Shown here: positions 21,186 to 61,342 of the stretch, piece after piece
How positions within the stretch are numbered: the stretch's first letter is position 1
Layout of the letters: the number at the start of each line of letters is the position of its first letter
Assembly (NCBI RefSeq): GCF_000469155.1
Contig: NZ_AWXE01000004.1
Location: 806,001-870,000, forward strand
DNA length: 64,000 bases
Source of the DNA: Candidatus Micropelagos thuwalensis
Lineage (GTDB): Bacteria; Pseudomonadota; Alphaproteobacteria; RS24
Direction of reading: 5' to 3'
Notes under the pieces: generated by a model
The model's input: only the letters and a program-made list of their open reading frames with translations
Told to the model about the DNA's origin: nothing
The model's database searches: none
Translations under genes and position numbers: made by a program

Positions 21186-21224
21186 AAAAAAACCCGGCCA
21201 AGGGACCGGGGTGTCACCCGGTCC
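21186..21224 (-). terminator. intrinsic terminator/antiterminator pair in the metZ leader
   Basis: Two overlapping stems can be drawn on the minus strand. One pairs GGACCGGG with CCCCGGTCC (21203-21224). The other pairs CCCGGTC with GGCCGGG (21193-21210, loop of 4) and is followed by seven T. They share bases, so only one can form at a time. This is the layout of a transcription attenuator placed directly after the riboswitch. Confidence 0.75.
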
Positions 21225-21279
21225 TTTTAGCCATTTATTTAACGTGGCTGCAAGCCGACCGGCTCAAATCACCACACCC
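21223..21279 (-). ncRNA. SAM-II riboswitch
   Basis: The minus strand shows the hallmarks of the SAM-II (metA motif) aptamer: GTGGTGATTTGAGCC, GCTTGCAGCCACGTTAAA and, after a short loop, GGCTAAAAGG. The P1 stem is GTGG (21275-21272) with CCAC (21247-21244); the pseudoknot strand is GGCTAAA. It lies 80 bases ahead of metZ, a usual target in Alphaproteobacteria, and senses S-adenosylmethionine. Recognised from memory of the consensus; a covariance search would settle it. Confidence 0.88.
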
Positions 21280-21287
21280 ATCTCCGG

Positions 21288-44424: not shown

Positions 44425-44453
44425 TTGTTACATGAGTGTAAAACTTCTGTAAT
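44425..44453 (+). promoter_or_regulatory. Pho box upstream of the lipoprotein-TBDT operon
   Basis: Three heptamers lie at an exact 11-base period: TTGTTAC (44425-44431), GTGTAAA (44436-44442) and CTGTAAT (44447-44453), with 4-base spacers. Each keeps the TGT core of the PhoB half-site CTGTCAT. An AT-rich -10-like stretch follows. Weaker in sequence than the gspD box but identical in layout. Confidence 0.6.
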
Positions 44454-44508: not shown

Positions 44509-47370
44509 ATGCCATCTTTCACTCTTTTTCGTAAATTTATGATGTCGGCCGTTCTAGGTCTGGCAGTTGCCGCATGTGATGGCGACAGTAATACCGAACT
44601 GGCCTCTCTTGGCACGGTCGGTCCTAACCCCGGCGCAGGTGGTACTACTTCTGGCGGTAGTTCTAGCGGTTCCAGTGGCGCAACTGCCAATTGTGAAGAC
44701 GGGTTAACTCAAGTCACACTAAGTAATGATGATGAAGTTTGCTCTATTTCTGGCACGATTGCTTCCGATCTGACACTCAGCGCCTCGAACATTTATATGT
44801 TGGACGGTAAAGTAGTCGTCGGTGAAAATGAAGCCAAAGATGGTACAGGCGGCACTAATGCTGTTCTGACCATTCCAGCCGGAACAAAAATTATCGGTAA
44901 GCAAACGCCGACCTCTGGTGTGACCTCTTACCTTGTTATTACCCGTGGTTCTCGTTTGGAAGCTACTGGTTCTGAAACACAACCAATTATCTTCACCTCC
45001 GAACAAGATCACCTGCGTGGTCGTACATCTCCAATTGCCCTTGAAGAATCTGAAACCGGTGAATGGGGCGGGATTGTGGTTAATGGTCTAGCAACTATTA
45101 ACAAAGGCACCGATTGTGAGCTTGCTGCCAACATTTGTGAGCGTGAAGGTGAAGGCGATAGCGGCCTTTACGGTGGTGACGATGACACGGATAACTCCGG
45201 TACATTCCGTTACATGCAGGTCCGTTACGCGGGGTTTGCGTTTACAGCAGATAATGAGCTGAATGGTATTGCCTTCCAGGGGGTTGGTTCCGGCACGACG
45301 ATTGAATATGTTCATGTTCATAATGGCGCGGATGATGGTATCGAATTCTTCGGTGGTACAGCTAACGCAAAATATATTGTTGTAACCGGTGCAGATGATG
45401 ACAGTATCGACTGGACAAATGGTTATCGCGGTTACATCCAATATGCGATCGTCATGCAAAACCCTAACCAAGCAAATACAGACCAAGGTATTGAGGCTGA
45501 CAGTAACTCTTCTGACAATGATGCTAAGCCGCGTGCTCGTCCTGTATTGTCAAACGTGACACTCGTTGGTGCGCGTCCTGCTGAGTCTGACATCGGGATT
45601 TTGCTTCGCGAAGGTACTGGTGCGGGCATCTATAACTCTGTTGTTTCCAATTTTGAAGACTGCTGGGATATTGATGGGACAGCAACTTACACAAACAGCA
45701 CAACAGCAACAGGCATTACTTTGAAATCTGTATTGTTTGATTGTGAGGACTCTTTCAAAGATGACACAGGTGCTGGCGAAGATGATACAGCCGCAGGAAC
45801 AGGTCTTGCTGCTAAATTCGCCGCCGGAGCCAATAATGTTGAATTGGCCAGCACATTGTCGAATGGTTTCATTAACGGTAATAATGAAAACTCTGTAACT
45901 TCCGTAAATGTTAACACTGAAGAAACACTGACATGGTTCGAATTTGCAACCTATATCGGTGCAGTGAAAAGCTCTTCAGCTACTGATAACTGGACCCTCA
46001 ACTGGACATATGGCATCAACCCGACGCCATCTTGCCCAACCGGAACAACAGCTATCGGTTCAACAGGTTGTGAGCTTTCAGGCGTTATTACAGATGACAT
46101 TAATTTAGTATCTGGTCTTAGTTACTTCTTGCGCGGCAAGGTTGTCGTTGGCGTCGATTGTGGCCCCGACAAAGATAACGAGCTCGCAACTTGTGACAAA
46201 GCTGAGCTGACAATTGATCCGGGTGTCTCTGTGTTTGCTCGCGAAAACCCGCTTTCTTATCTAGTTATCGCACGCGGTTCTAAATTGAACTCAAACGGTA
46301 CAGCATCCGCACCTGTAACCTTTACGGTTGAAGATGACTCTTCAAGAAACATTGACTCGGATACGGGTCTTTGGGGCGGACTAGTTATAAATGGTCGTGC
46401 GCCAATCAACAAAGGGACAAACTGTGAGGTTCTTACCAATCTGTGTGAGCGCGATGGTGAAGGCGATAGCGGTAAATACGGTGGTAACGATGCTGCCGAT
46501 GATAGTGGTCAAATTTACTACACAGTCGTCAAATATGCAGGTTATGCATTTACCGCAGATAACGAGCTGAACGGCATTGCCTTTGAAGGTGTCGGTTCCG
46601 GAACGGAAGTAGATTACGTCCAAGTCCATAACGGCGCTGATGACGGTATTGAGTTCTTCGGCGGCACGGTAAATGCCAAGCACCTTGTCGTGACCGGTGC
46701 TGATGATGACAGTATCGATTGGACGAACGGTTATGTTGGTAATATCCAATACGCAATCGTTGTTCAAAACGGTGCCAATCAGGGTAACACCGATCAGGGT
46801 ATTGAAGCGGACAGTAACTCATCCAACAATGATGCTCTGCCACGGGCCTTCCCATCCTTGTCAAACTTGACACTTGTCGGTTCCTTCCCAGCCGCAACTG
46901 GTGCAGAATCCGATATCGGTATCCTGTTACGAGAGGGTACGGGCGCTAATATATACAATACTGTAGTGGTTGGTTTCCAGGACGGTATCGACATTGACGA
47001 TGCAGCAACTTACGCAAATCGTGATAGTGCCACAACTGGTATCAATCTTAAGTCCGTGTTTATTGATGCAGATACGGCTTTCGGTGATGATACAGCTGCC
47101 GGTGAAGACGATACAGCCGCTGGCTTTGATCTCGGGGCTTGGTTTGCAGCTGAAGACGCCAATAATGACAGCACGACGGCTAACTCTTTAACCACTCTCA
47201 GCGGTGCGACGACTGGACAGAAGCGCTACATTAACGGTGCAACTGAAAACGGTATTACTGATACCGATCCAACAGCTCTCGGTACCTTCTTTGAAGATGC
47301 TGGTTTTGTTGGAGCCGTACAGAGTTCCGACAACTGGACGTCCGGTTGGACGGTCTGGTTGAACGACTAG
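44509..47370 (+). CDS. large acidic lipoprotein with two homologous beta-helix-like halves
   Basis: Lipoprotein of 953 residues. GGAGGG lies 4 bases ahead of the ATG. The signal peptide ends in lipobox AVAAC (Cys23); Asp follows at +2. A Gly/Ser/Thr linker leads to two homologous halves of about 436 residues each. The copies share GDGEGDSG-type residues, FTADNELNGIAF, VHNGADDGIEFFGG, VTGADDDSIDWTNGY, NTDQGIEADSNSS and DIGILLREGTGA. Short repeating strands rich in Asn, Gly and Asp suggest a right-handed beta-helix with bound calcium; that is inference. It is followed by a TonB-dependent receptor and gspC. It may be related in role to the phosphate-induced surface lipoprotein ElpS of Caulobacter, encoded beside a T2SS. 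Confidence 0.85.
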   Translation: MPSFTLFRKFMMSAVLGLAVAACDGDSNTELASLGTVGPNPGAGGTTSGGSSSGSSGATANCEDGLTQVTLSNDDEVCSISGTIASDLTLSASNIYMLDGKVVVGENEAKDGTGGTNAVLTIPAGTKIIGKQTPTSGVTSYLVITRGSRLEATGSETQPIIFTSEQDHLRGRTSPIALEESETGEWGGIVVNGLATINKGTDCELAANICEREGEGDSGLYGGDDDTDNSGTFRYMQVRYAGFAFTADNELNGIAFQGVGSGTTIEYVHVHNGADDGIEFFGGTANAKYIVVTGADDDSIDWTNGYRGYIQYAIVMQNPNQANTDQGIEADSNSSDNDAKPRARPVLSNVTLVGARPAESDIGILLREGTGAGIYNSVVSNFEDCWDIDGTATYTNSTTATGITLKSVLFDCEDSFKDDTGAGEDDTAAGTGLAAKFAAGANNVELASTLSNGFINGNNENSVTSVNVNTEETLTWFEFATYIGAVKSSSATDNWTLNWTYGINPTPSCPTGTTAIGSTGCELSGVITDDINLVSGLSYFLRGKVVVGVDCGPDKDNELATCDKAELTIDPGVSVFARENPLSYLVIARGSKLNSNGTASAPVTFTVEDDSSRNIDSDTGLWGGLVINGRAPINKGTNCEVLTNLCERDGEGDSGKYGGNDAADDSGQIYYTVVKYAGYAFTADNELNGIAFEGVGSGTEVDYVQVHNGADDGIEFFGGTVNAKHLVVTGADDDSIDWTNGYVGNIQYAIVVQNGANQGNTDQGIEADSNSSNNDALPRAFPSLSNLTLVGSFPAATGAESDIGILLREGTGANIYNTVVVGFQDGIDIDDAATYANRDSATTGINLKSVFIDADTAFGDDTAAGEDDTAAGFDLGAWFAAEDANNDSTTANSLTTLSGATTGQKRYINGATENGITDTDPTALGTFFEDAGFVGAVQSSDNWTSGWTVWLND
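44680..47365 (+). repeat. internal duplication in the lipoprotein gene
   Basis: The two halves align with an offset of about 1308 bases. For example GGTGAAGGCGATAGCGG occurs near 45147 and again near 46456. The central parts (about 45145-45620 and 46453-46940) are the most alike at protein level. Confidence 0.9.
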
Positions 47371-47383
47371 TCCTTACGGATAC

Positions 47384-47412
47384 TGGCCGTCGCAGTTTTG
47401 CTGCGGCGGCCA
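47384..47412 (+). promoter_or_regulatory. strong intercistronic hairpin
   Basis: TGGCCGTCGCAG pairs with CTGCGGCGGCCA over 12 bp with one G-U pair and a 5-base loop. It lies between the lipoprotein stop and the receptor start. No T run follows, so it is more likely an mRNA-stabilising or processing element than a terminator. Confidence 0.75.
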
Positions 47413-47453
47413 ACTCACTCTTCGGTTTATGCCTTCAAAATCAGGTTGCCAAA

Positions 47454-49991
47454 ATGACAAATTTTAAACAAATAAATTCCAGCTTAGCCGCTTTTGCTTT
47501 GCTGGTATCTTTTCCGGCTCTTACTAATGCTCAGGATATTGATGAAATTCAGGTCATAGGGGTTTTTATTCCCGATGAAAAACGTAATACCTCCGAGATT
47601 TCCAATGTTCTGGAAGCTGAGGACTTTTCACTCGCTGGAGATAGCGATATAGCTGTCGCCTTGACGCGCCTTCCGGGTCTTTCTCCTGATACGACGGGTA
47701 AATATGTCGTCGTCAGAGGTTTGGTAGAAAGATATACATCCACCCTTCTGAATGGCACACAATTGCCATCACCTGACCCTTTGAAAACAGCTGTTCCGCT
47801 TGATATTTTTCCGACAAGTATTATCGGAAATGTTCTTGTCCAGAAAACATATTCTGCTGAATATCCTGGCGCTTTTGGTGGCGGTGTTATTGACCTTAGG
47901 ACAAAAAGTGTTCCAGATGAACCGTTTTTAAACATAAGCTTATCAACGGGTTATAATTCAGAATCGACTTTAGAAGACGGACTTTCCTATTATGGCAGTG
48001 ATCGTGACTGGCTGACTTTTGATGATGGTCATAGAGAACTTCCAAGCATATTCAGAAATGATTATCAGCTTACCAGTCAGACACCTGCGTCTTTAGAGCA
48101 ATATGGTGAAGCAATCCCGAATATTTGGTCTATCGATTTTGATGAAAATCTTCCTGATGTTTCGGCCAAAATTTCTGGTGGTACTAACCGTGATACCGAT
48201 AATGGAAGAATTGGGGTAATTTTTGCCCTCGATTATACCAGTGAATATCGTAACCATTTTGGTGAGCAATTTTCTTATTCCGCAACTGATGCCGGTCTGG
48301 TTATTCAACAAAACTTTTCAGATAGTGTTTGTGTAGGCCAGGGTGTGAGTACCGAATATTGTGGTTTTAATACAACCTCATGGAACACAAATTTGAACGG
48401 ACTGTTGTCTGTTGGCTGGGAAATCGACGCGAATAGTGAGATTAAATATACAGGTGTTTTGCTTCGTTCGAGCCAGAAGCAGGTACAGATAAAAGGCGGG
48501 TCTACCGACTCCAATGATCTTGAAAATACGACACGTCTGGATTGGAAAGAGCGAGAAGTTATTTCTAATGCGGTATCGGGTGAACATACGTTTGATCTAA
48601 TTGATGCTGGCGAGACAATGCTTGATTGGTCGCTCAATATAACCAACGCTTCTCGGGATGTTCCGTTACGTCGTCGTTATAAATATTTCTACGATGACGG
48701 TCCTGGTGCTTTTCGTATCAGTACTCGGACAGATGGTAATCTAACCGAATATGGTTATATGGAAGATGAGTCCCGCGACTTTGTTGTTAATCTCACGCAG
48801 GCTACGAATCTGTTTGGTTTTGAAACGGACATTAAAGCCGGTGCGGCTTATAACGAAAAAGAGCGTTCTAGTTACTACCTGACTTACCACTATAATATGG
48901 GCCAGGTTACGAACCGTGATTTACTGTTCCGTGTTCCTGAAGTAATTTTTGGTTCAGTCAATATCGACCCAAATGGGATTTATTTACAGTCTTTAACACG
49001 TGCTGCCGACAGTTTCTCTGCTGATTTTAAGAATGACCAAGCCTATTGGCAAATCGACACGCGTTTGACAGATACTATCCGCATATCATCCGGTTATCGT
49101 TACGAAGACAGCGAGCAATTGGTGCGTGCGACTGATCGGTCTACGCTTACACCTATTCTCGTTACACAGCAGATAGAGTCTTTCCTCCCGTCAGCAACTC
49201 TTACTTGGGAATTTGCAGATAATATGCAATTGCGCTTTGGTTATTCGGAAACCATTAACCGTCCTGATAGCCGTGAGTTATCTCCTGCCCGTTTCATTCG
49301 TGAAGATGGCCGGACGGAAGAAGGTAATCCAAATTTACAATTTGCTGAAATCAAGAACTACGATATTCGTTATGAGTGGTACTTTGGTGATAGTGACTCT
49401 GTAACTGTTGGAGTGTTCTACAAGGACATCACAAATCCAATCGAGTACTCCATTGCTTCCATCGGCGGTGAGGGTCAGCTTGATACAGTGGCAAATGCCG
49501 ATGAAGCTGAGCTTTCAGGTATTGAAGTCGAGATAGAAAAGCAACTTGGTAAATATATGAATCGCGATTTATTCTTAAAAGCCAATACGACATATATTGA
49601 CTCAGAAGTGATGCGTAGCGCTGCCAATTTTGGTGAGGTAACAAATCTCGTGGGTCCTATGCAGGGCCAGTCTGAGATACTTGCCAATATTCAGTTTGGC
49701 TTTGAGAATATTGAGCATAACGAATTCTTTAACGTCGTGCTTAACTATGTCGATGAACGGGTTTATCGCTTGGGTACAAACTCGCGACCTGACCTAATTG
49801 AAAAACCGCCTTTCGAGCTGAATCTGGTTTACAGCCGTGATATTTATACAGCTTATGACCGCCCTGTTGGTTTGTCTGTAAAGGTCAAGAATCTTCTGGA
49901 CGAAGGGGCTGAGAGGCTTCAAGGTTCAGAGATAGCTGAATCCTATGATATTGGCACAACACTTTCTATCGGTCTGAATTACTCATTCTGA
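47454..49991 (+). CDS. TonB-dependent outer-membrane receptor
   Basis: Outer-membrane active transporter of 845 residues from the ATG at 47454. A signal peptide ends at TNAQ; the TonB box is DEIQVIG directly after it. The plug domain follows (LPGLSPDTTGKYVVVRGLVE, NGTQLPSPDPLKTAVPLDIFP, YPGAFGGGVIDLRTKSVPDE), then a beta-barrel ending in aromatic Phe (GLNYSF). It belongs to the CirA/Fe-type receptor superfamily, but the substrate need not be iron. It is encoded 83 bases after the acidic lipoprotein and 28 before gspC, so these three are one operon. I infer that the lipoprotein captures or helps deliver its ligand. Confidence 0.92.
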   Translation: MTNFKQINSSLAAFALLVSFPALTNAQDIDEIQVIGVFIPDEKRNTSEISNVLEAEDFSLAGDSDIAVALTRLPGLSPDTTGKYVVVRGLVERYTSTLLNGTQLPSPDPLKTAVPLDIFPTSIIGNVLVQKTYSAEYPGAFGGGVIDLRTKSVPDEPFLNISLSTGYNSESTLEDGLSYYGSDRDWLTFDDGHRELPSIFRNDYQLTSQTPASLEQYGEAIPNIWSIDFDENLPDVSAKISGGTNRDTDNGRIGVIFALDYTSEYRNHFGEQFSYSATDAGLVIQQNFSDSVCVGQGVSTEYCGFNTTSWNTNLNGLLSVGWEIDANSEIKYTGVLLRSSQKQVQIKGGSTDSNDLENTTRLDWKEREVISNAVSGEHTFDLIDAGETMLDWSLNITNASRDVPLRRRYKYFYDDGPGAFRISTRTDGNLTEYGYMEDESRDFVVNLTQATNLFGFETDIKAGAAYNEKERSSYYLTYHYNMGQVTNRDLLFRVPEVIFGSVNIDPNGIYLQSLTRAADSFSADFKNDQAYWQIDTRLTDTIRISSGYRYEDSEQLVRATDRSTLTPILVTQQIESFLPSATLTWEFADNMQLRFGYSETINRPDSRELSPARFIREDGRTEEGNPNLQFAEIKNYDIRYEWYFGDSDSVTVGVFYKDITNPIEYSIASIGGEGQLDTVANADEAELSGIEVEIEKQLGKYMNRDLFLKANTTYIDSEVMRSAANFGEVTNLVGPMQGQSEILANIQFGFENIEHNEFFNVVLNYVDERVYRLGTNSRPDLIEKPPFELNLVYSRDIYTAYDRPVGLSVKVKNLLDEGAERLQGSEIAESYDIGTTLSIGLNYSF

Positions 49992-50019
49992 TAGTTTTTA
50001 TGGAAATCTTTTGGATAAT

Positions 50020-50847
50020 ATGACCGCCGCTGAATCACCGTCGACAAAGTTTATCGTTAATGCGCTAGAAATTGTCCTTGTTGTTTCGGCGGCGTTTCTT
50101 TTGGCTCATTATGTCGCGACATTTCTGGACGACAAGAGCCGCCTTAAGATTTCTGCTTATCAAACACCCGTCGCTAAGGATATGCAGCAATTTTCGCAAT
50201 CCTATGACTTTAAAAATATGTTCTTCCCCGAATTGACTGCGGGTGAAGATAAAATTGTGAAGGTGCGTGCCGCAGAGTCTTCATTGGATATTAGATTATT
50301 TGGTCTTCGCGCAGACGGTAACGGCATGGGAAGCGTTATTTACAAAATAGGTGCTCAAGAACAGCAAAACGTTCGTGTCGGTGAACAAATGGCCGATAAG
50401 ATTAAATTACTTGCCGTTTTTAATGACCGTATAGAAATCAATAATAATGGGCGTTTTGAAACTGTAACATTCGGCAAGGTCAACTCACGTTTGCGTGGTT
50501 TGCTGGAGCCGACGCCGCCGCCCGAACAAAACGAAAATGTTAAAACAGACCAGGCACAACCGCCTTTTTTAACGACCAGCTATTTTAAACCTGTAAAAAA
50601 TGAGAATGGCGTGACGGCGGGTTTTATCCTTCAACCTGAATATGCAGCTATGCTGTCCGGCACGGCTTTTATGCTTGATGATGTCATTATGGAAATAAAT
50701 GGTGAACGTGTCCACAATTATGAAAATTTGTCCGAAGCTCTTGAAGGTATCCGTTTCGGGCAGAAAGTTAATATGACGATTGAGCGGCGCGGGAACAAAC
50801 AAAGCATGTCATTTATGGTCCCGGCACCAAGCACTGCAAACCGTTAA
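50020..50847 (+). CDS. gspC: type II secretion system protein GspC
   Basis: Inner-membrane clamp of the T2SS, 275 residues. One membrane helix near the N-terminus (ALEIVLVVSAAFLLAHYVAT), a homology region that binds secretin (LDIRLFGLRADGNGMGSVIY to VRVGEQMADKIKLLAVF), a Pro-rich linker, and a C-terminal PDZ-like domain (LDDVIMEINGERVHNYENL). The ATG at 50020 is favoured over a TTG three codons upstream. It is co-transcribed with the receptor, and separated from gspD by a Pho box. Confidence 0.88.
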   Translation: MTAAESPSTKFIVNALEIVLVVSAAFLLAHYVATFLDDKSRLKISAYQTPVAKDMQQFSQSYDFKNMFFPELTAGEDKIVKVRAAESSLDIRLFGLRADGNGMGSVIYKIGAQEQQNVRVGEQMADKIKLLAVFNDRIEINNNGRFETVTFGKVNSRLRGLLEPTPPPEQNENVKTDQAQPPFLTTSYFKPVKNENGVTAGFILQPEYAAMLSGTAFMLDDVIMEINGERVHNYENLSEALEGIRFGQKVNMTIERRGNKQSMSFMVPAPSTANR

Positions 50848-50893
50848 AATCATATTGGTACGTTAATTTCCACCATTCACAATAAATGTTAAT

Positions 50894-50922
50894 CTGTCAC
50901 ATGATTGTCACAAAACTGTCAT
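50894..50922 (+). promoter_or_regulatory. Pho box upstream of gspD
   Basis: CTGTCAC (50894-50900), TTGTCAC (50905-50911) and CTGTCAT (50916-50922) repeat at an exact 11-base period with 4-base spacers ATGA and AAAA. This is a near-perfect three-half-site PhoB site. A -10-like TATTTT starts at 50930, 8 bases after the last half-site, as in PhoB-activated promoters that lack a -35. Confidence 0.85.
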
Positions 50923-51044
50923 GAACAAGTATTTTACTCTCCATCGTCAGATCTTTTATCGAATTCAGATCTTAATAATTAATAGTGGCCATGTGTCACC
51001 AGGTTGTTTCTAGAAATTACAATAAGTAAAAGGATTTGGTACTC

Positions 51045-52976
51045 ATGAAAATTTTATTCGTTTTGTTGTTTACACTTATATCGTTTACCGCAAACGCACA
51101 AATTTCAGGGGGGCTGAATTACAAGGACGCGGATTTGCGAGAATTCATCGAAGATGTCGCCCTCGCCACACGTAAAACATTCATTATCGACCCAGGTGTC
51201 GCCGGCAAGGTTAATCTTGTTTCTAGTAAAAATGTTGACGCCGAATTACTGTTTGAAATTTTTCTTTCAGTGCTGAAAGTCAATGGGTATGCGGCTACAT
51301 CCACGGTTGATGGTGGTTATAAAATAATTCCTGTAAATATTGCTTTTAAAGATAGCGTTGAGGAGGACGCGAAGGGTGATCGTATTGCCACCAAAGTCTT
51401 TTTTCTTCGTTATGCCGATCCGGTAAAAGTTCTGGGGGTTGTGCAACAATATGTTAATCCTAAGGGATTAAGTTTTGCGCGTGAGGGATTGCAAGCCATT
51501 GTCGTATCGGATTATGCGCATAATCTTACACGCATTCAGTCAATAATCGCCGAAATTGATGTCGATAATTCGGTTGTTAAAATCGTTAAGTTGAAAAACA
51601 CATCTGCCCGTGAAATGGCGGATGTAGCCCGTCAGATAGCCAGCGAGAATTCTAATAATCAATCAAGTTATCAATCAGTCAAAGCCATACCTATAATTGC
51701 AAGTAACTCTTTAATATTGAAGGGTCAATCACAGACAGTGGAGAGATATTTTCCTATCATAGAAAAGCTCGATCTTGAAAATGCATCAAACGGTTCGCTA
51801 AAAGTTGTGAAACTGAAATATGCAAATTCTGAAACCTTGTTGCCGACTTTACAGGCGCTTTCAGACAGCATTGCCGCACCTGATGTAGGGGTTAATAAAT
51901 TTTCTGCAGAAAAAATTATAATCTCAAATTACGTAGAGGCTAATGCAATTATCATTAAGGCAAGTGCTGATGCCCAAAAGAAAATTATTGATTTAATTTA
52001 CTCTCTCGATACACCGCGCGCGCAGGTGCTTGTCGAAGCAATCATTGTCGAAGTTTCCAATAATGCGGCCAAGTCACTTGGCGTGCAATATGTTCTCGCC
52101 GGGGGCGAAGACAGTAAAGTACCTTTTACAGTTTCTAATTACAGCAATACATCACCTAATATTCTCGCTGCGACTGGAGCGTTGGTGCTGGATGATTCGT
52201 CAGACAGTAGCAGCTCTGCTACGGTGGAAAATCTGTCGGGCGTTCTGCGTTCTGCCGCTATTGATAGCATGCTTGGCATTAACGGGCTGGCGGTTGGTGC
52301 CGCGGGGACGCGAAGTGATGGCGGCATTTTCGGGGTTATTCTGAATGCATTATCCGGAGACGTGAAAAGTAATATCCTCTCCACACCGTCGATTATGACT
52401 TTGGATAATGAGCCTGCTAAATTCATTGTTGGTCAGGAAATTCCCATCACGACGGGTGAGGCGCTTGGGTCTTCCAATGCTAATCCATTCCGTACGATAG
52501 ACCGTAAAAATGTCGGGGTACAGTTGGAGGTTGTTCCTCAAATTAATGAAGGCGATGAAATCCGCCTTAAGATTAGGCAGGAGGTTTCCTCTGTCTCCGG
52601 TCCTATAGCAACGACCTCGACTGAGTTGATAACAAATAAACGAGAAATGGAAACCACCGTCAGGGTTGGCGATGGAGAAATAATTGTGCTTGGTGGTCTT
52701 ATCCAGCAGGACGAGACCATATCAGTCGACAAAATACCTCTGCTCGGAAGTATTCCTGTACTTGGTAAAGCTTTCAGTTCAGAGCAAAAATCAAAATCTA
52801 ACACTAACCTTATGGTTTTCCTGCGCCCAACAATCGTAAGAACATCAGAAGATGCTCGTGCAGTGACGGAACTTAAATATGGTTATATTTCGGACAGCCA
52901 GAAAAAAGCTAAAACAAAACTCTCCCTGGATGACATGATGCAAGATGTCGTGGGCGTCACCTCGGAACAGGAGTAA
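51045..52976 (+). CDS. gspD: type II secretion secretin GspD
   Basis: Outer-membrane channel of the T2SS, 643 residues. Signal peptide ends at TANAQ. N0-N3 periplasmic domains follow, with repeats such as VVKIVKLKNTSAREMADVAR and LKVVKLKYANSETLLPTLQ. The secretin core has VLVEAIIVEVSNNAAKSLG, NILSTPSIMTLDNEPAKF and VGQEIPITTG. It is the first gene of the second T2SS unit, directly behind the Pho box. No GspS-like pilotin site is evident at the C-terminus. Confidence 0.95.
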   Translation: MKILFVLLFTLISFTANAQISGGLNYKDADLREFIEDVALATRKTFIIDPGVAGKVNLVSSKNVDAELLFEIFLSVLKVNGYAATSTVDGGYKIIPVNIAFKDSVEEDAKGDRIATKVFFLRYADPVKVLGVVQQYVNPKGLSFAREGLQAIVVSDYAHNLTRIQSIIAEIDVDNSVVKIVKLKNTSAREMADVARQIASENSNNQSSYQSVKAIPIIASNSLILKGQSQTVERYFPIIEKLDLENASNGSLKVVKLKYANSETLLPTLQALSDSIAAPDVGVNKFSAEKIIISNYVEANAIIIKASADAQKKIIDLIYSLDTPRAQVLVEAIIVEVSNNAAKSLGVQYVLAGGEDSKVPFTVSNYSNTSPNILAATGALVLDDSSDSSSSATVENLSGVLRSAAIDSMLGINGLAVGAAGTRSDGGIFGVILNALSGDVKSNILSTPSIMTLDNEPAKFIVGQEIPITTGEALGSSNANPFRTIDRKNVGVQLEVVPQINEGDEIRLKIRQEVSSVSGPIATTSTELITNKREMETTVRVGDGEIIVLGGLIQQDETISVDKIPLLGSIPVLGKAFSSEQKSKSNTNLMVFLRPTIVRTSEDARAVTELKYGYISDSQKKAKTKLSLDDMMQDVVGVTSEQE

Positions 52977-52984
52977 CCCTCCAC

Positions 52985-54505
52985 ATGGTAAGATCGTCAC
53001 AGATTATCTCCAATGCAGAGGCAGAACGTTTTTCTGAGATATTACCTTATGCTTTCGCCAGGGATTATGGGTTGGCTCTATCATCTGAAAAAAAAGGTTT
53101 TTGCCTGAACCTGTCACAAACCGTTGACCGGGGAATGATTGCCGAAGTGTTTCGGGCTTATCGTGACGTCAATATAGTTAAGACACTTTCCGATGAAGAT
53201 TTTGAAAGCCTACTTTCTACAATGTATGCGAGCCGCGGTATTGACGCCGAGGTTGATAGCTTGTCTGAGGCAAACGGGGACGACCTGGATAGTGTCTTGC
53301 AGGGTGTTGAGCGATCTGCTGACTTACTTGCTGGGGATGATGATGCGCCAGTTATCCGGCTTCTCAATAGCTTGTTTAGTGAAGCTGTGCGTGCCGGGGC
53401 GTCGGATATTCATCTTGAACCATTTGAGGACAAAGTTGCTGTCCGATTGCGCATAGACGGGCTTTTGACAGAAATCGCAGCATTATCAGCCAAATTGGCT
53501 CCCTATCTTGTTTCGCGTGTAAAAGTGATGGCACGGTTAGATATTGCGGAAAAACGGCTTCCGCAAGATGGTCGCCTGTCTTTGACTCTTGGCGGCAAAA
53601 GCTATGATGTGCGGGTTTCTACGTTACCAATCCGATATGGTGAGCGCGTGGTAATGCGTCTTCTCGATAAGGATCAGGCATTTTTGAGTCTTAGTGATCT
53701 CGGCATGGCGGATAAAATATGTAAACGTTTTGAGGGCGCTTTATCAGAACCAAACGGAATTTTGTTGGTAACCGGACCGACTGGGGCGGGTAAAACTACA
53801 ACTCTCTATGCTGCCTTGGGACTTTTGAACGACCAATCGCGCAACATAATGACTGTTGAAGATCCTATTGAATATGCTTTGAAAGGGGTCAGCCAGACTC
53901 AGGTGAATAACAAAGTCGGCATGACATTTTCAAGTGGTTTGCGGTCTATTCTCCGTCAGGATCCGGATGTGGTGATGGTGGGAGAGATACGAGATGCCGA
54001 GACAGCCGAGATTGCCGTTCAAGCCAGTTTGACAGGGCATTTGGTTTTGTCCACCGTCCATACCAATAGTGCGGCGGCTGCCATTACACGGCTAGTCGAT
54101 ATGGGTGTTGAGCCGTTTTTACTTGCCTCATCTGTAAAAGCTGTGCTTGCACAGCGACTGGTGCGGCAATTGTGTGGATCATGTAAGCAACCTTATCAAG
54201 CTTCCAAAGACACTGCGGCAAAGCTTGGACTGAAAAGCCGTCAGCTTAAGTTATATCGACCGACTGGCTGTCTTGACTGCCAAAATACAGGTTATCGCGG
54301 CCGTGTCGGAATATATGAGCTCATTATGGTGAACGACGATATTCGTCGCATGATTCAGAATGGTGCCGGTGAATTGGATATCGAGGCACAGGCTATTGCC
54401 GAAGGTTTGCCTGTTCTTGCCGATAGCGGACGTGAGCTTGTATTGTCGGGTGAAACTACGCTTGAGGAAGTATTGCGGGTCTCTCGGCTCAAGGGGTCGG
54501 AGTAA
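52985..54505 (+). CDS. gspE: type II secretion ATPase GspE
   Basis: Cytoplasmic hexameric ATPase of 506 residues that powers pseudopilus assembly. Walker A is GPTGAGKTTT, the Asp box is VEDPIEYAL, Walker B is DVVMVGEIRDAETAE, and the His box is TGHLVLSTVHTNSAA. A tetracysteine zinc site follows (LCGSCKQPY and CLDCQNTGYRGR). Its stop overlaps the gspF start in TAATG. Confidence 0.97.
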   Translation: MVRSSQIISNAEAERFSEILPYAFARDYGLALSSEKKGFCLNLSQTVDRGMIAEVFRAYRDVNIVKTLSDEDFESLLSTMYASRGIDAEVDSLSEANGDDLDSVLQGVERSADLLAGDDDAPVIRLLNSLFSEAVRAGASDIHLEPFEDKVAVRLRIDGLLTEIAALSAKLAPYLVSRVKVMARLDIAEKRLPQDGRLSLTLGGKSYDVRVSTLPIRYGERVVMRLLDKDQAFLSLSDLGMADKICKRFEGALSEPNGILLVTGPTGAGKTTTLYAALGLLNDQSRNIMTVEDPIEYALKGVSQTQVNNKVGMTFSSGLRSILRQDPDVVMVGEIRDAETAEIAVQASLTGHLVLSTVHTNSAAAAITRLVDMGVEPFLLASSVKAVLAQRLVRQLCGSCKQPYQASKDTAAKLGLKSRQLKLYRPTGCLDCQNTGYRGRVGIYELIMVNDDIRRMIQNGAGELDIEAQAIAEGLPVLADSGRELVLSGETTLEEVLRVSRLKGSE

Positions 54506-55776
54506 TGCCTGCATATCAATATGAGGCGCTGGATGCGCAAGGGAAAAAGAAAAAAGGTGTGATCGCTGCTGATAGTTTGCGTGATGCAAGAAAACGCCTG
54601 CAATCGAAAACATTATTTCCGGTCAGTCTAACTGAGGGCGGGCGCGCAGAATCTTCTGATAGGTTGGCGTCAACGTCACTAACCGCACGTCTATCTTCAC
54701 TTCTGTCTTCTCTGAGTTCAAATTCAACACGAAGCGCAAAAATATCGTCACGCGATCTTGCCATGGTAACGCGTCAAATGGCGACTATGGTTGGAGCAGG
54801 CTTGCCAGTGGATGAAACTTTGCAAGCTATTGCAGCGCAAAGTGAGAAAACGTTAATACGCGATGTATTGACCAATATCCGGAGTCGTGTTGTCGAAGGG
54901 GAAAAACTCTCTGAAGCGATGAAAGTGGAAGCAACATCTTTTGATGATTTATACCGGGCGATGATTGCCGCCGGAGAAGCGTCTGGTGATTTGGACGGCA
55001 TTCTGGCGCGGATTTCTGAATATTGCGACAAATCTGAAGATGTAAGAACCAAGGTGCAAGCGGCCATGGTTTACCCAGCGGTTTTGAGTGTAATCGCTAC
55101 CGGTGTTCTTGTACTTCTCATGACATTTGTAGTGCCTAAAATTGCCGTTCAATTTGAGTCCTTTAATGCTGAATTGCCCGCTTTGACTCGCTTTGTTATT
55201 GGCTTGTCAGACATCCTGACGCATCTTGGCCCTGCTTTTTTGCTGATTATCATTGCGGCTGGTATTGGTTATACTGCCGCCATGAGACGCAAGCCTTTAC
55301 GCCTGAAGGTGCATGGCTTCTGGCTCCAACTCCCTTTGATCGGCAGATTATTGCGTGTCGTCGCGAGCGCACGGTTCGCCCGTACATTGGGGACGCTGGT
55401 TGAAGGCGGTAGTCCTGTGCCTGAGGCTATATTGGCTGCTCGTGAAACCCAGTCCAACCAAGTTGTCCGCGACGCTGTTGATGGTATTTATAAAGATGTC
55501 CGTGAAGGTAGCGCTCTCGCTAATGCATTCCGTAAAAGTGGGATTTTTGCGCCTTTACTGGTTTATATGGTGGCGATGGGCGAAAAAAGTGGCTCACTAC
55601 CTCATATGCTAACAAAGACAGCCGACTATCTTGAAGGTGAGTTTGACGGGGTCACGCGCACCCTAATGAATCTTCTTGAACCAGCTATTGTTGTGATTAT
55701 GGGCCTTATGGTTGGCGTGATTGTCATGTCTATTATGTTACCGATTATGCGTCTAAACAGTCTTGTTTTATCTTAG
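54505..55776 (+). CDS. gspF: type II secretion inner-membrane protein GspF
   Basis: Platform protein of 423 residues with two repeated cytoplasmic domains and three membrane helices. Typical segments are MPAYQYEALDAQGKKKKGVI, TRQMATMVGAGLPVDETLQA, KVQAAMVYPAVLSVIATGVL, and the terminal helix AIVVIMGLMVGVIVMSIMLP. Translationally coupled to gspE. Confidence 0.96.
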   Translation: MPAYQYEALDAQGKKKKGVIAADSLRDARKRLQSKTLFPVSLTEGGRAESSDRLASTSLTARLSSLLSSLSSNSTRSAKISSRDLAMVTRQMATMVGAGLPVDETLQAIAAQSEKTLIRDVLTNIRSRVVEGEKLSEAMKVEATSFDDLYRAMIAAGEASGDLDGILARISEYCDKSEDVRTKVQAAMVYPAVLSVIATGVLVLLMTFVVPKIAVQFESFNAELPALTRFVIGLSDILTHLGPAFLLIIIAAGIGYTAAMRRKPLRLKVHGFWLQLPLIGRLLRVVASARFARTLGTLVEGGSPVPEAILAARETQSNQVVRDAVDGIYKDVREGSALANAFRKSGIFAPLLVYMVAMGEKSGSLPHMLTKTADYLEGEFDGVTRTLMNLLEPAIVVIMGLMVGVIVMSIMLPIMRLNSLVLS

Positions 55777-55787
55777 GGAAAGAAGAA

Positions 55788-56237
55788 ATGACCATACATT
55801 GCCACTCTCAACCAAATTTGAAAATACCCAGGGCTAATGGATTTTCCTTTATCGAACTTATGGTTGCCGTTGTGATTATGGGGCTTTTGACATCCGTTGT
55901 GGTGTTGAATGTGCTGCCGAGCCAAAATCGCGCTATGGTCGAAAAAGCCCGCAGTGATGTGGCTCTGCTATCGCAGGCGATAGAAATGTATCGTATGGAG
56001 ACCCTTCGATATCCAGCTATGGAAGATGGCTTGGATGTTCTGACTCGTGCCCCTGCTGGTGATACATTTCGCCAGGAAGGGTTTGTCAAATCCCTCCCCA
56101 AAGATCCTTGGAATAATCCCTATCAATATCTTGTTCCTGGAGAATTCGGACCTTATGATGTTTTCTCTTTTGGTGCTGACGGACGACTAGGTGGCACTGG
56201 ATTGGACGCAGATATTGGCAACTGGCTGGACGAGTAA
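55788..56237 (+). CDS. gspG: type II secretion major pseudopilin GspG
   Basis: Main pseudopilus subunit, 149 residues. Prepilin peptidase would cut after Gly18 before FSFIELMVAVVIMGLL, with the conserved Glu at +5. The calcium-binding C-terminal part is present (LPKDPWNNPYQYLVPGEFG, VFSFGADGRLGGTGLDADIG). The leader is longer than usual. Confidence 0.96.
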   Translation: MTIHCHSQPNLKIPRANGFSFIELMVAVVIMGLLTSVVVLNVLPSQNRAMVEKARSDVALLSQAIEMYRMETLRYPAMEDGLDVLTRAPAGDTFRQEGFVKSLPKDPWNNPYQYLVPGEFGPYDVFSFGADGRLGGTGLDADIGNWLDE

Positions 56238-56242
56238 TCATT

Positions 56243-56617
56243 ATGGCTGGCACTCCGACATCCGCGCAGGGCTTTTCTCTGCTCGAATTGCTGGTCGCCG
56301 TATCCATTCTGGCTCTTGCTGCTATCCCGATACTTGTCAATCAAAGCCAAAGCGTGCGTATGGCGTCACATATGCAGGAAAAAGTGTTGGCACATACAGT
56401 GGCTGAAAACATCATCGTATTGCTTTCGATTAAATCTGGCGTCAGTGCTGGTATTTTGATGGGCGAACAGCGGCAAGGTGGCGCGGAATTTTTATGGCAG
56501 GCTGATATTTCTCGAACAACAGATGGTGGCCCTCTCATGATGTCAGTATCGGTGTCCCGTCCTGGTAGTACGACAAAGCTGGCGCATCTGACGGGCTTTA
56601 GAGAGGCAGGACGATAA
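56243..56617 (+). CDS. gspI: type II secretion minor pseudopilin GspI
   Basis: Minor pseudopilin of 124 residues. Cleavage is expected after Gly10 before FSLLELLVAVSILALA, with Glu at +5. The segment AENIIVLL-like residues (VLAHTVAENIIVLLSIKSG) and length fit GspI rather than GspH. It follows gspG directly, so gspH is missing from its usual place. Its stop overlaps the gspJ start by one base. Confidence 0.85.
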   Translation: MAGTPTSAQGFSLLELLVAVSILALAAIPILVNQSQSVRMASHMQEKVLAHTVAENIIVLLSIKSGVSAGILMGEQRQGGAEFLWQADISRTTDGGPLMMSVSVSRPGSTTKLAHLTGFREAGR

Positions 56618-57294
56618 TGTCGGAAAAAGGCTTCAGTCTTGTCGAGACGCTTTTGGCTATGTTTCTGTTATCTCTTGTGTCGATGACAGCTCTGGTCATG
56701 TTGAATGGTTATTTTCGTGGTTCGGCGGCGATTGGAACGGCAAGTTCACGCCTTTCACAAATGATGTCAGCGCGTGAACAACTTGCAGATGATTTGCTCC
56801 ATGCTGTAATCCGCCCTTCTGGTGAGGCTGAGATGCCGGTTATATTTTATGGTGATATACGCGATACTTGTTTTTTACGTCTGACGCGTCGGGCGGGATC
56901 AACAGCGATTTATGATCCGCGCGGGACGGATATCGAGTCTGTTCGCTATTGTTTGGAAAATGGGAGGTTGATACGTCAAGCTTATACCCGCCCTGATGCA
57001 GTGCGCGATACCCCTAAGCGGCACTACAGTCTTATTGACAATTTAGAGACGGTGGAAATTAGATTTCTTGTAAATAATGCTTGGGTGCGCGAGTGGCGAA
57101 TTACAACGCAAAATGTTTATAGCCAAATAGATATTGGACTACTTAACCCCGAAGGGGTCAACGGCATAAGCACGGATGATTTGCCTAGTCTTGTAGAAGT
57201 GAGTTGGGTGGTAACAGATGATGGCATCTCGCGGGACTATGTGCATTATTTCCGTACCGGTCAGAGTCCCGCAAGAAGTCCCGGGGGTGCATGA
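56617..57294 (+). CDS. gspJ: type II secretion minor pseudopilin GspJ
   Basis: Minor pseudopilin of 225 residues with cleavage after Gly5 before FSLVETLLAMFLLSLVSM, Glu at +5. The mature domain includes SRLSQMMSAREQLADDLLHA and a beta region with YCLENGRLIRQAY. GspJ sits with GspI and GspK at the pseudopilus tip. gspK overlaps its end by four bases. Confidence 0.9.
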   Translation: MSEKGFSLVETLLAMFLLSLVSMTALVMLNGYFRGSAAIGTASSRLSQMMSAREQLADDLLHAVIRPSGEAEMPVIFYGDIRDTCFLRLTRRAGSTAIYDPRGTDIESVRYCLENGRLIRQAYTRPDAVRDTPKRHYSLIDNLETVEIRFLVNNAWVREWRITTQNVYSQIDIGLLNPEGVNGISTDDLPSLVEVSWVVTDDGISRDYVHYFRTGQSPARSPGGA

Positions 57295-58322
57295 TGGTCG
57301 GTAGAAATAAACTTTTTTCTGTCGCTTCGGTATCTCGGTGCCAGGGTAGGCAAACGGGTGCAGCTCTGATTATTGTGTTGGGTTTGGTGTCTGTTATGAG
57401 TGTGACGGCGGTTGTGGCCTTTGATATGTTTAGTATGTTTGTTCGCAAAACCACTAACAGTCAGATATTGTCGCAAGCGCGTGAATATGCGCTGGCCGGA
57501 GAAATGCTCGGTGCTAAACGTGCCGGAACTTTCATCAAAGCTAATGAGTTATTTGGCATTAACGATGCTGTCAATGACGCTGAGAACCGTCTGAAAGTTG
57601 ATATGCCGATTGATGGTGGACGCATTAAAGGTGCGTTAAAAGAAAGTACAAATTGCTTTAATCTCGCGACACTGGTTCGTAAAATGCCGGATGGATCATT
57701 TGTGGCTAATGTGACGGCCATGCAGCAATTTTCTAACCTGTTACAGGCCATGGGTGTTGGCAAAACAGAAGCGACATCTTTGACGGCTGCTCTAACGGAC
57801 TGGCAAGATAGTGACACAAGGCCTCTGCCTATGGGGGCCGAGAGTGCCACCTATAATCAACTTGATCCACCTTACCGGACATCCGATAGTCGACTGGTGA
57901 GTATTAAGGACTTGCATTTAATCCGTGACTTCTCGGTTGATCTTGTCGAAGCGTTGACCCCATTGGTTTGCATTGACCCGCTGGATACGCAAACCGTGCT
58001 TAATCTTAATACCCTGCAACCGCATCACTCCTTACTGGTTAAGGCATTGCTCGGTGATGTGATTACCATGCAACAGGCATCGCAATTGATAGCTGCCCGC
58101 CCGCGGGGAGGCTATGACCATAATCGTCGGTTTTGGCAAATGAAGATGTTTGAGGATAAGGCAATCCCGGAGACAGTGCGCGGGCAATTTATCACCACGC
58201 CGAGACGTTTTCTTCTGACTGTCGATGTGTATTTGAACTCGGCGCTTACACGGTTGAACTCGGCGCTACACTTTAACCCCGATGGGTCATATATTATTAC
58301 CTCTCGCTACTTTGGGGCATAG
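57291..58322 (+). CDS. gspK: type II secretion minor pseudopilin GspK
   Basis: Large tip pseudopilin of 343 residues. The cleavage site is Gly before AALIIVLGLVSVMSV, without Glu at +5, as is typical of GspK. The alpha-domain inserted in the pilin fold contains LTDWQDSDTRPLPMGAES and YRTSDSRLVSIKDLHLIR, the usual GspK signature with a calcium-binding region. Two ATG codons (57291 and 57294) could start it. Confidence 0.93.
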   Translation: MMVGRNKLFSVASVSRCQGRQTGAALIIVLGLVSVMSVTAVVAFDMFSMFVRKTTNSQILSQAREYALAGEMLGAKRAGTFIKANELFGINDAVNDAENRLKVDMPIDGGRIKGALKESTNCFNLATLVRKMPDGSFVANVTAMQQFSNLLQAMGVGKTEATSLTAALTDWQDSDTRPLPMGAESATYNQLDPPYRTSDSRLVSIKDLHLIRDFSVDLVEALTPLVCIDPLDTQTVLNLNTLQPHHSLLVKALLGDVITMQQASQLIAARPRGGYDHNRRFWQMKMFEDKAIPETVRGQFITTPRRFLLTVDVYLNSALTRLNSALHFNPDGSYIITSRYFGA

Positions 58323-58341
58323 GAATTCAGGAACGCAATTT

Positions 58342-59385
58342 ATGGCGCGTGCACAAATTGAATTTATTAAAATAGCCGAAAACCTAACCGCTAATTTGGG
58401 TAGTAATGCGGTAGCGGTCATAGCCGGGGACACTGTGAGCAGTTTCCGTGTGACCTTGCCAGCACTGTCTGCGAGAAAATTGAGAAAGACGCTTCCATTT
58501 TTGGTTTCGGATCTGCTGGTGACGGATATAGAGGATATGCATCTGTGTTTGGTCGAGACGGAAACACCAAATGACTACCTCTTATTGGCTTGTGCCAAAA
58601 CTGTTATGCGCGAGATGCAGGATAAGGCACTGGCAGAGGATTTAACCCTGAAGGCCGCATGGCCCGACTATATGTTGATTGCGCCACCCGATGAGGGTGT
58701 TATCCTGGAGCATGAAGGTGGTGATATCTTATGTCGCCGTGCAGACGGCACAGGCTTTCGTATGCCGAAAAAAATCGCAGAAGCGGCTTTAAGTGATGTG
58801 CCAAAGGATGCCCGTAAAGATGGTAACCGCGGCAACTTACCAGAAGAAGGGCAGGGCTTGGCAACCGGTATTTTTGGCCCACAATTTCCGTTTATGAGTT
58901 ACCTGCCTATTTTTAAACGCCCGGCGATTTTGGCGGCATCAATCTTATGCATTTGGGTCATTGGTACATTTGCACAAATTGGTCGACACCAGGCGACGCG
59001 CGCGGATTATGAAGATGCCTCAATACAGTTGTTCAAACAGGCTTTCCCCGATGTAACCCGTGTTGTTAATGTCGAAGCTCAGCTTATGAACAAAATGATG
59101 TCGTCCAATACTTTGCCAGCACGAAACTTTTTATATCTGACGGATACGCTTTTTCAGGCAATTGACGATGTTGAAAATATCGGAATAGACAGGCTGAATT
59201 TTGACCGGACGGATATACGCCCTTTGCAGGTCACCCTACGTGCGCAGAATTTTTCGACTCTGGAGCTTGCCAGACAAAAGCTCGTTGATGCCGGTTTTGC
59301 CGTTATCGAAGGAAAAAGTAGTCAAACTGTGAGTGGCGTGACTGGTGATTTCGCCTTGTCCCGCACAGCAGGAATTCGCCAATGA
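58342..59385 (+). CDS. gspL: type II secretion protein GspL
   Basis: Inner-membrane protein of 347 residues that recruits GspE. A cytoplasmic actin-like part (LPALSARKLRKTLPFLVSDL) leads to one membrane helix (ILAASILCIWVIGTFAQIG) and a periplasmic ferredoxin-like domain. The ATG at 58342 has AGGA 9 bases ahead; a longer frame reaching into gspK is rejected. It overlaps gspM by four bases. Confidence 0.87.
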   Translation: MARAQIEFIKIAENLTANLGSNAVAVIAGDTVSSFRVTLPALSARKLRKTLPFLVSDLLVTDIEDMHLCLVETETPNDYLLLACAKTVMREMQDKALAEDLTLKAAWPDYMLIAPPDEGVILEHEGGDILCRRADGTGFRMPKKIAEAALSDVPKDARKDGNRGNLPEEGQGLATGIFGPQFPFMSYLPIFKRPAILAASILCIWVIGTFAQIGRHQATRADYEDASIQLFKQAFPDVTRVVNVEAQLMNKMMSSNTLPARNFLYLTDTLFQAIDDVENIGIDRLNFDRTDIRPLQVTLRAQNFSTLELARQKLVDAGFAVIEGKSSQTVSGVTGDFALSRTAGIRQ

Positions 59386-59891
59386 GGGATACGCTGAACA
59401 ATATGTTGAGGAGTGCGAAGGCAACTTTTGCGGGTTTTTGGCGATCTGTGACACTGCGAGAACAAATCGCTTTTTTGATCGCTGGTACAGCCATCATTCT
59501 ACTCTTGCTTTATGTTGGCTTGATAAGACCACTGGATATGAAACTGGAAAAAAGTCGCGCTTCTCTGTCTATAGAAAAAGCACGTTTTGAACGTATTGCC
59601 GAGCTTCTTTCGCGTGCCGGTAATCAACCAGATGTAACATCTATCAGCGATAAGCCTTTAAGGGCAACGCTAACGGAAACAGCGAAACGCATCAATATCG
59701 GACTAAGTATCATTCAGCCCGGTGAGGGTGGTAGTGTGATGTTGCGAATTAATAAGACCAGCAGTGCAGCCCTTATGCGTTGGCTTTCGACGCTTCAATC
59801 CGAGCATAATCTTCAGGCGGACGAGGTTTTGATACAGAAAAATATGGATGAGAAAAGCCTGAATGTACGCGCTGTTTTTGGCCGAGAATGA
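59382..59891 (+). CDS. gspM: type II secretion protein GspM
   Basis: Small inner-membrane protein of 169 residues that binds GspL. The N-terminal helix reads QIAFLIAGTAIILLLLYVGL, preceded by a basic cytoplasmic tail. The C-terminal ferredoxin-like part ends in KSLNVRAVFGRE. Assignment rests on helix position, length and order after gspL. Confidence 0.85.
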   Translation: MRDTLNNMLRSAKATFAGFWRSVTLREQIAFLIAGTAIILLLLYVGLIRPLDMKLEKSRASLSIEKARFERIAELLSRAGNQPDVTSISDKPLRATLTETAKRINIGLSIIQPGEGGSVMLRINKTSSAALMRWLSTLQSEHNLQADEVLIQKNMDEKSLNVRAVFGRE

Positions 59892-59910
59892 GACTATAGG
59901 AGCCTGCTGA

Positions 59911-60771
59911 ATGAAAGATATTATTAAGCTGGCTTCGGCTTTATTGAGGCATTTCTCTGCTGTCACCGGTCATATTGTACCTCTTATACGCGGCCTGTCT
60001 GAAACGCGTTTAAGCCATGCCAGCCTGGGTAAACTGTTTGCTCTTGTTTTTATTATAAACCTGGTCATTCAATTACCGGCGTCACTTGGGGTGCGCATGC
60101 TCCAACCACAGGGTCTAAATGCGCAGAGCATATCCGGCAGTCTTTGGGACATTCGGCTCAAACAGTTTGTCTATGCGGGGCGTCAATGGTCGTTCGGACG
60201 TTTCGAAATAGCTGTTTTGCCTTTATTAATTGGGCGCTTTGGCGGCGATTTTTCTTTGTCGGGGACGGACGGTGTTTTTAAAGGGTCTATAAAACATGCT
60301 GAGTCGGACAAGGTAATTTTTCACAGCCTGGATGGAAAATTCAGCTCATATTTTCAGTCTACTGAAATCAATGGCACGACCATTCAAGTGCCAGTCAATG
60401 TGGCCTTTGAAGGACGTAAGTTGGATTTGGACAAAATCGGCACATGTTACGACGGGTCGGCGATGCTTACCCTATCTACAGACAATGCAGTTGTAGGCAG
60501 TTTGCTGCCTGCCAGTCTGTTATGGAACGGAAAAGCCAGGTGTACGGATGGGGTAATACGTTTTGACCTGACTGCTGAAACTTCTCAGACCACAAAGATT
60601 GACAATATCCGTATAGCTGGCAGGCTAGAAGCGATGCGCTTAAAGGCAGACATTATCGTGAACTTGTCCATGTCAAGCCAGAATGATGACGCTATTTTGA
60701 ATGTTTTGCGTTTCTCCGGTTTTGAGGCGCGACCGGATGGGTGGGCGTTACAGTTAGATGGAGGGATTTAA
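59911..60771 (+). CDS. gspN: type II secretion protein GspN
   Basis: Inner-membrane-anchored periplasmic protein of 286 residues. One N-terminal helix (KLFALVFIINLVIQLPASLG) is followed by a beta-rich domain beginning LNAQSISGSLWDIRLKQF, as in GspN proteins. The role in the T2SS is unclear and the gene is missing from many systems. AGGAGCC precedes the ATG. Confidence 0.83.
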   Translation: MKDIIKLASALLRHFSAVTGHIVPLIRGLSETRLSHASLGKLFALVFIINLVIQLPASLGVRMLQPQGLNAQSISGSLWDIRLKQFVYAGRQWSFGRFEIAVLPLLIGRFGGDFSLSGTDGVFKGSIKHAESDKVIFHSLDGKFSSYFQSTEINGTTIQVPVNVAFEGRKLDLDKIGTCYDGSAMLTLSTDNAVVGSLLPASLLWNGKARCTDGVIRFDLTAETSQTTKIDNIRIAGRLEAMRLKADIIVNLSMSSQNDDAILNVLRFSGFEARPDGWALQLDGGI

Positions 60772-60772
60772 G

Positions 60773-61342
60773 ATGAACAGACTATCAAAGTCCTTAACAA
60801 TGTTTGTATCGCTTAGTTTGGCGAGTTTCTTGAGTGGGTGTGCGAATTTGCTTGTTCCCGTTGTCATTGCGACCACACCCATGGTTCTCCCATCACCCGA
60901 AAATGCCGCGAAGAAAAATACTTCCGCCGGTCAATCGGATAGTGAAGTAGTGAAAACGATTCCTGAAGGTCAGCTTGTATTCGGTAGTTTGCCACCGCAA
61001 CTGCTTCCAGAGGGCCAGTGCGGGTTGTTTCTGTGGGGCGCAGGGGAAGGCCGCCCTTTATATTTTTTCCAAAACACCGCTGAGGCGCGGGCGATTATTC
61101 CTGTTAATGGAAAAAATATCATTATCCACCGAAACGCCGCCGCTAGACAAATTGTTGAGGGGTTTTTTGCCCGTCAAAGTTTCATTGTCGGTGACATTAA
61201 AATCTCAGTTAACTTGCAACCTGATCAGGGACGAAACGTTCTCAAAGGCATTGTCATTCCTTCGGGAGTTATAAATGTCACTGAAAATTCAGGCCGTCAG
61301 TCAGTCTTGTCTGTTGTTGGGCTATTTAACTGTAAGCTATAG
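60773..61342 (+). CDS. putative lipoprotein at the end of the T2SS operon
   Basis: Protein of 189 residues with signal peptide and lipobox SFLSGC; Ala follows at +2, predicting Lol transport to the outer membrane. GGAGGG precedes the ATG and the gspN stop is one base before it, so it is co-transcribed. The mature part has no recognised domain; two Cys remain (GQCGLFLWG and LFNCKL) and could form a disulfide. It could be a pilotin for GspD or another accessory part. Family not recognised. Confidence 0.72.
   Translation: MNRLSKSLTMFVSLSLASFLSGCANLLVPVVIATTPMVLPSPENAAKKNTSAGQSDSEVVKTIPEGQLVFGSLPPQLLPEGQCGLFLWGAGEGRPLYFFQNTAEARAIIPVNGKNIIIHRNAAARQIVEGFFARQSFIVGDIKISVNLQPDQGRNVLKGIVIPSGVINVTENSGRQSVLSVVGLFNCKL

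Follow-up and report, generated by a model that had tools for sequence, protein, structure and literature searches.

The island that carries elpS (CC0170), a gene for a TonB receptor (CC0171) and gspC-N has been described in Caulobacter crescentus, where ElpS is made only under phosphate starvation and is released with the help of the T2SS, according to the part of the source available to us (PMC2996285). The same 2010 paper, in that part, calls the Caulobacter T2SS constitutive (PMC2996285), and a 2024 paper lists the T2SS, in its section 11, among 47 Caulobacter genes regulated directly or indirectly by PhoB (PMC11208175). On the available text of these two papers, phosphate control of the island is thus not new. 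They are what a literature search for a Pho box at a T2SS turned up; among the 8 papers listed for the phrase ‘three half-sites’, none contained it.

Another T2SS that serves phosphate scavenging is Hxc of Pseudomonas, whose proteins are seen in P. aeruginosa when phosphate is limiting. It differs in being another operon, with alkaline phosphatases or a DING protein as cargo, and hxcR of P. fluorescens is itself not phosphate-induced (available parts of PMC9769906 and PMC2225411). The E. coli Pho box, as given in the available part of PMC4415409, is built of 11-bp units, each of seven conserved and four less conserved bases, with a CTGTCAT core.

We describe a secretion island of Candidatus Micropelagos thuwalensis, of the marine PS1 clade, and a Pho box within it. 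The window analysed is a stretch of 64,000 nucleotides, C4:806001-870000 of the 1.96-Mb genome. The island resembles that of Caulobacter in its genes, their order, its homologous ElpS and receptor and its phosphate-starvation context. It differs in that ElpS is doubled, the box follows gspC, and PhoX and PhoD gave matches in Caulobacter but not here. The kind of control is known; box position, doubled ElpS and missing textbook phosphatases set the PS1 case apart as a variant. The box shares the E. coli unit and core, but its half-sites are odd in number and its spacing from the nearest -10-like element is unusual.

The secretion island and its two arrays

The features of the island, all on the + strand, are as follows.

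44425-44453, +, degenerate three-half-site Pho-box-like array, TTGTTAC-atga-GTGTAAA-actt-CTGTAAT, 11-bp period
44509-47370, +, ElpS-like lipoprotein, homologous to Caulobacter ElpS (~37% identity, C. vibrioides locus L133)
47454-49991, +, TonB-dependent receptor, counterpart of Caulobacter CC0171 (~33% identity to C. vibrioides L133)
50011-50847, +, gspC (PF11356; ATG at 50020), upstream of the gspD box
50894-50922, +, three-half-site Pho box, CTGTCAC-atga-TTGTCAC-aaaa-CTGTCAT, in the gspC-gspD gap, oriented towards gspD
50894-50900, 50905-50911 and 50916-50922, +, its half-sites CTGTCAC, TTGTCAC and CTGTCAT, with starts exactly 11 bp apart
50930-50940, +, putative -10, either TATTTT (50930-50935) or TACTCT (50935-50940)
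51045-52976, +, gspD (secretin; PF00263, N0 domain PF21305), first gene 3′ of the box
52985-60771, +, gspE, F, G, I, J, K, L, M and N, one tightly spaced run 3′ of the box
60758-61342, +, small lipoprotein-like ORF that overlaps the gspN 3′ end, probably the run's last gene; no Pfam match

The genes elpS, TonB receptor and gspC-N thus lie in this order on one strand, with gspC starting 19-28 bp behind the receptor gene. gspN is assigned on a T2SSN match that falls below Pfam's cut-off, and no gspH was found between gspG and gspI (56237-56243). Within the ElpS-like lipoprotein one stretch is duplicated in tandem (57% identity over 431 aa). A match of similar length exists in a Sphingomonadales MAG (L196).

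The gspD box lies between the end of gspC at 50847 and the gspD ATG at 51045, on the strand of both genes, and consists of direct CTGTCAT-like heptamer repeats at 11-bp period, as expected of a Pho box. The three phased heptamers of the original prediction are therefore there in the letters. Its -10-like element, put 8 bases on, needs a small correction: TATTTT starts on the eighth base after the last heptamer, which makes the gap 7 bases, not 8. TACTCT lies at a distance of 12, and textbook Pho promoters have 10 bases between the last half-site and the -10. A further half-site-like heptamer, GTGTCAC at 50993, is kept only in part among relatives. Two other candidate elements were rejected: a sigma-70 promoter-like match at 50876-50905, overlapping the box, since such matches occur at chance level (11 found versus 8.1 expected), and a terminator between gspC and gspD, since hairpins do too (3 found versus 3.4 expected, 47300-51100).

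With gspC ahead of it, the box could serve gspD to gspN only. Phosphate control of the whole secretion apparatus, as first proposed, is consequently too broad a claim for this box, which does not reach gspC. The latter probably depends on a promoter further upstream, perhaps that of elpS with its own degenerate triple array.

The elpS array departs from the consensus at 5 of its 21 positions. By a PhoB weight matrix its right pair reaches 13.7 bits, the fourth-best score in the window. It is kept in outline in two other genomes of the genus, G001 and G002 (15 and 16 of 21 matches); there the first heptamer, TTGTTAC, is identical, the third is CTGTAAT, or CTGTAAC in G002, and the middle one is degenerate. 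This pattern is suggestive of a weaker Pho box, kept in outline within the genus. Elsewhere a triple array precedes elpS in 1 of 44 loci, so that the PS1 array is not a shared feature.

Rarity, rank and conservation of the gspD site

The half-site YTGTCAY occurs 50 times in the window, counting both strands. At this frequency the expected number of in-phase triples is 7.6e-6 per window and 2.3e-4 per genome, which bears out the claim that a chance origin is very unlikely. The exact in-phase triple (29 bp) has a single place in the 1.96-Mb genome, the gspD site, while the reversed-pattern control, allowed up to 3 mismatches, gives 0 + 1 places. The pair pattern YTGTCAYN4YTGTCAY has three exact places in the 1.96 Mb, two of them at the gspD site. 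The third, C4:421841, is antisense to the beginning of an ORF that we take to be sucA-like and for that reason was not counted as a promoter; its letters are not among the 46 places with at most one mismatch listed for four genus genomes, of which 30 were read for gene context.

A weight matrix was built from nine genus sites (before pstS, a PlcP-like gene and a DUF2490-like gene), without any gspD site. Among the 150 of 544 first-look candidates that were scored, the best sites are those of the PlcP-like gene (18.4 bits), pstS (18.2), the DUF2490-like gene (17.1) and gspD (12.9), followed by one at 9.1. The top three had trained the matrix, which leaves the fourth as the one independent result; the gspD site does rank with that of pstS, as had been foreseen. 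With a similar matrix the best place in the window is 50905 (23.3 bits, versus 14.5 for the runner-up), and no place in 30 simulated Markov windows reached its score.

Other top sites of the genome scan lie before ordinary Pho genes: pstS, with its box at C4:796554, and a metallophosphoesterase gene, presumably PlcP, followed by a glycosyltransferase gene. The regulatory genes are at hand. phoR, pstS, pstC, pstA, pstB, phoU and phoB follow one another at C4:795.4-802.7 kb, ~3.3 kb outside the left edge of the window; PhoB matches above its model cut-off, and PhoR has TIGR02966 as its best match (297 bits, under the 334-bit cut-off).

Separately, among the 150 of 544 candidates scored, one of the genome's three top-ranking Pho boxes belongs to a small secreted-looking protein with weak DUF2490 similarity (L008:797-1396, on contig C3 of this genome, minus strand). 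Judged by that box, the gene of this protein is a possible new member of the Pho regulon.

We searched 97 genomes, this one included, for gspD. Five others belong to the genus; four have a gspD ortholog, and the upstream DNA is covered in three (G001, G002 and G003). In G005 gspD is cut by a contig end, which puts it outside the count. The triple array is kept in 4 of the 4 genus genomes with the gspD upstream region (our own and these three), while bases between and around the half-sites vary. In G001 and G003 the middle half-site reads GCGTCAC and the best pairs at the site score only 11.2 and 12.3 bits; in both, the gspD site again holds the genome's best triple, at 2 mismatches, and G002 has one exact triple place. 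Downstream of the box, TACT is invariant in all four genomes and TATTTT reads CATTCT in two. In two genomes of the same family (G022 and G027) the gspD orthologs abut or overlap gspC, and no box was found.

Comparison with other T2SS loci

The comparison set holds 80 gspD loci, 76 of them with a measurable gap between the gspC stop and gspD. The three PS1 loci have a gap of 197 bp, and 71 others have one of at most 75 bp; the values of the remaining two (L154 and L157) are artefacts of a wrongly chosen upstream ORF.

Triple arrays (at least 16 of 21 matches) occur within 300 bp after the receptor gene in 17 of 50 non-PS1 loci, against 3/50 for the reversed and 0/50 for the complemented control pattern (Wilcoxon p = 4.7e-7 and 3.2e-8, respectively; both values are optimistic, given the relatedness of the loci). 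No triple array was found in the 260 bp before gspD in 75 non-PS1 loci, or inside gspD in 76 loci. A box between receptor and gspC is a variable feature of the relatives; the PS1 loci (L120-L122) carry theirs before gspD instead, so that the PS1 box stands one gene further in. What is new here, as read from the compared loci, is a predicted box after gspC rather than before it.

The arrays before gspC in relatives from Caulobacter, Phenylobacterium, Brevundimonas, Sphingomonas and Lysobacterales likewise consist of three half-sites with an 11-bp period; they too lie on the coding strand, next to the same island. They differ in lying one gene upstream, in the receptor-gspC gap, and in having more degenerate half-sites, often CTGTCGC or CCGTCAC. 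In C. vibrioides and five near relatives (L131, L133, L134, L135, L137 and L138) no array of at least 15 matches was found after the receptor gene, and three of these loci, read in detail, gave no consensus box in the island. Together with a T2SS called constitutive in the available part of PMC2996285, this indicates that not every such machine is under phosphate control. From the comparison, triple Pho boxes seem to recur in the ElpS, TonB receptor and T2SS island across Alphaproteobacteria, and to change their place within it.

Readings of the site and the cargo question

The site at 50894-50922 is very probably a PhoB operator, part of an internal promoter from which gspDEFGIJKLMN would be induced when phosphate is short. 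Its rank beside pstS, its conservation in the genus and the presence of phoB and phoR make a PhoB-dependent promoter likely and give good support to its identity as a Pho box. Several observations count against such a promoter: the 7-base gap to TATTTT where 10 is usual, the altered middle half-site and low pair scores in G001 and G003, the absence of the array before gspD in the 75 non-genus loci, and the Caulobacter data above, with no consensus box in three loci and a T2SS called constitutive. Under phosphate scarcity PhoR would phosphorylate PhoB, which would bind the three tandem half-sites, replacing the -35 contact, and recruit sigma-70 RNA polymerase to a -10 just 3′ of the box; the expected outcome is more of the secretin, the ATPase, the pseudopilins and the platform. 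Transcription of elpS, the TonB receptor gene and gspC would come from upstream, probably also under (weaker) PhoB control through 44425-44453. The lipoprotein ElpS at the cell surface, the receptor and the secretion machine, all products of the island, may then jointly scavenge phosphorus from organic matter.

Beyond the fact that a long sequence had been searched by eye, nothing speaks for a chance resemblance, and with the per-genome expectation given above and the array kept in every genus genome that could be counted, we regard it as extremely improbable. The array might also be an operator for another regulator of the OmpR/PhoB family with a common TGTCA core. The genome does encode four further full-length regulators of this type (scores of 144.7-184.2 bits with the PhoB model, none reaching its cut-off); however, the same motif, spacing and matrix put pstS and the PlcP-like gene at the top of the genome, which points to PhoB, and the island is PhoB-regulated in Caulobacter according to the available part of PMC11208175. 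We therefore think another regulator improbable.

It is about equally improbable that PhoB binds here to little effect, the site being inert or mainly blocking read-through from gspC because of its non-canonical -10 spacing. The TATTTT gap fits this, and many E. coli PhoB sites are transcriptionally inert, as stated in the available part of PMC10294691. Those sites, though, are intragenic, whereas the gspD box is intergenic, stands upstream of a gene run, is conserved and has an invariant TACT block downstream. With the operator reading preferred, the gspD box offers a precise predicted promoter for phosphate control of a secretion machine.

PhoX, PhoA and PhoD were not found in the genome (completeness 99.4%); of 14 control genomes, 2 gave matches to PhoX, 7 to PhoA and 3 to PhoD. 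A PF01663 search for another phosphatase returned one ORF over the cut-off, rejected because its sequence reads as a sulfatase. Three textbook alkaline phosphatase families were thus not found in the genome of this marine PS1 lineage. We tentatively consider a wider scheme, somewhat doubtful as a whole, in which PS1 PhoB would act at two points, a weak box before elpS, receptor and gspC and a strong one before gspD-N; the machine could then be increased separately from ElpS and from GspC, its gating subunit, and its phosphorus-scavenging cargo would be something other than PhoA, PhoX or PhoD. If this is true, the cargo of the PS1 T2SS is a good place to seek a new phosphorus-scavenging enzyme.

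Two observations lie apart from the island. Two copies of CTGTCACAGTGGTGTCACAG stand ~3.1 kb apart (L011, C5:107404, and L012, C5:110516), one of them just 5′ of an integrase-like ORF; they look like mobile-element attachment-site repeats, not Pho boxes. In the window, an alphaproteobacterial SAM riboswitch lies at 21207-21285 on the minus strand.
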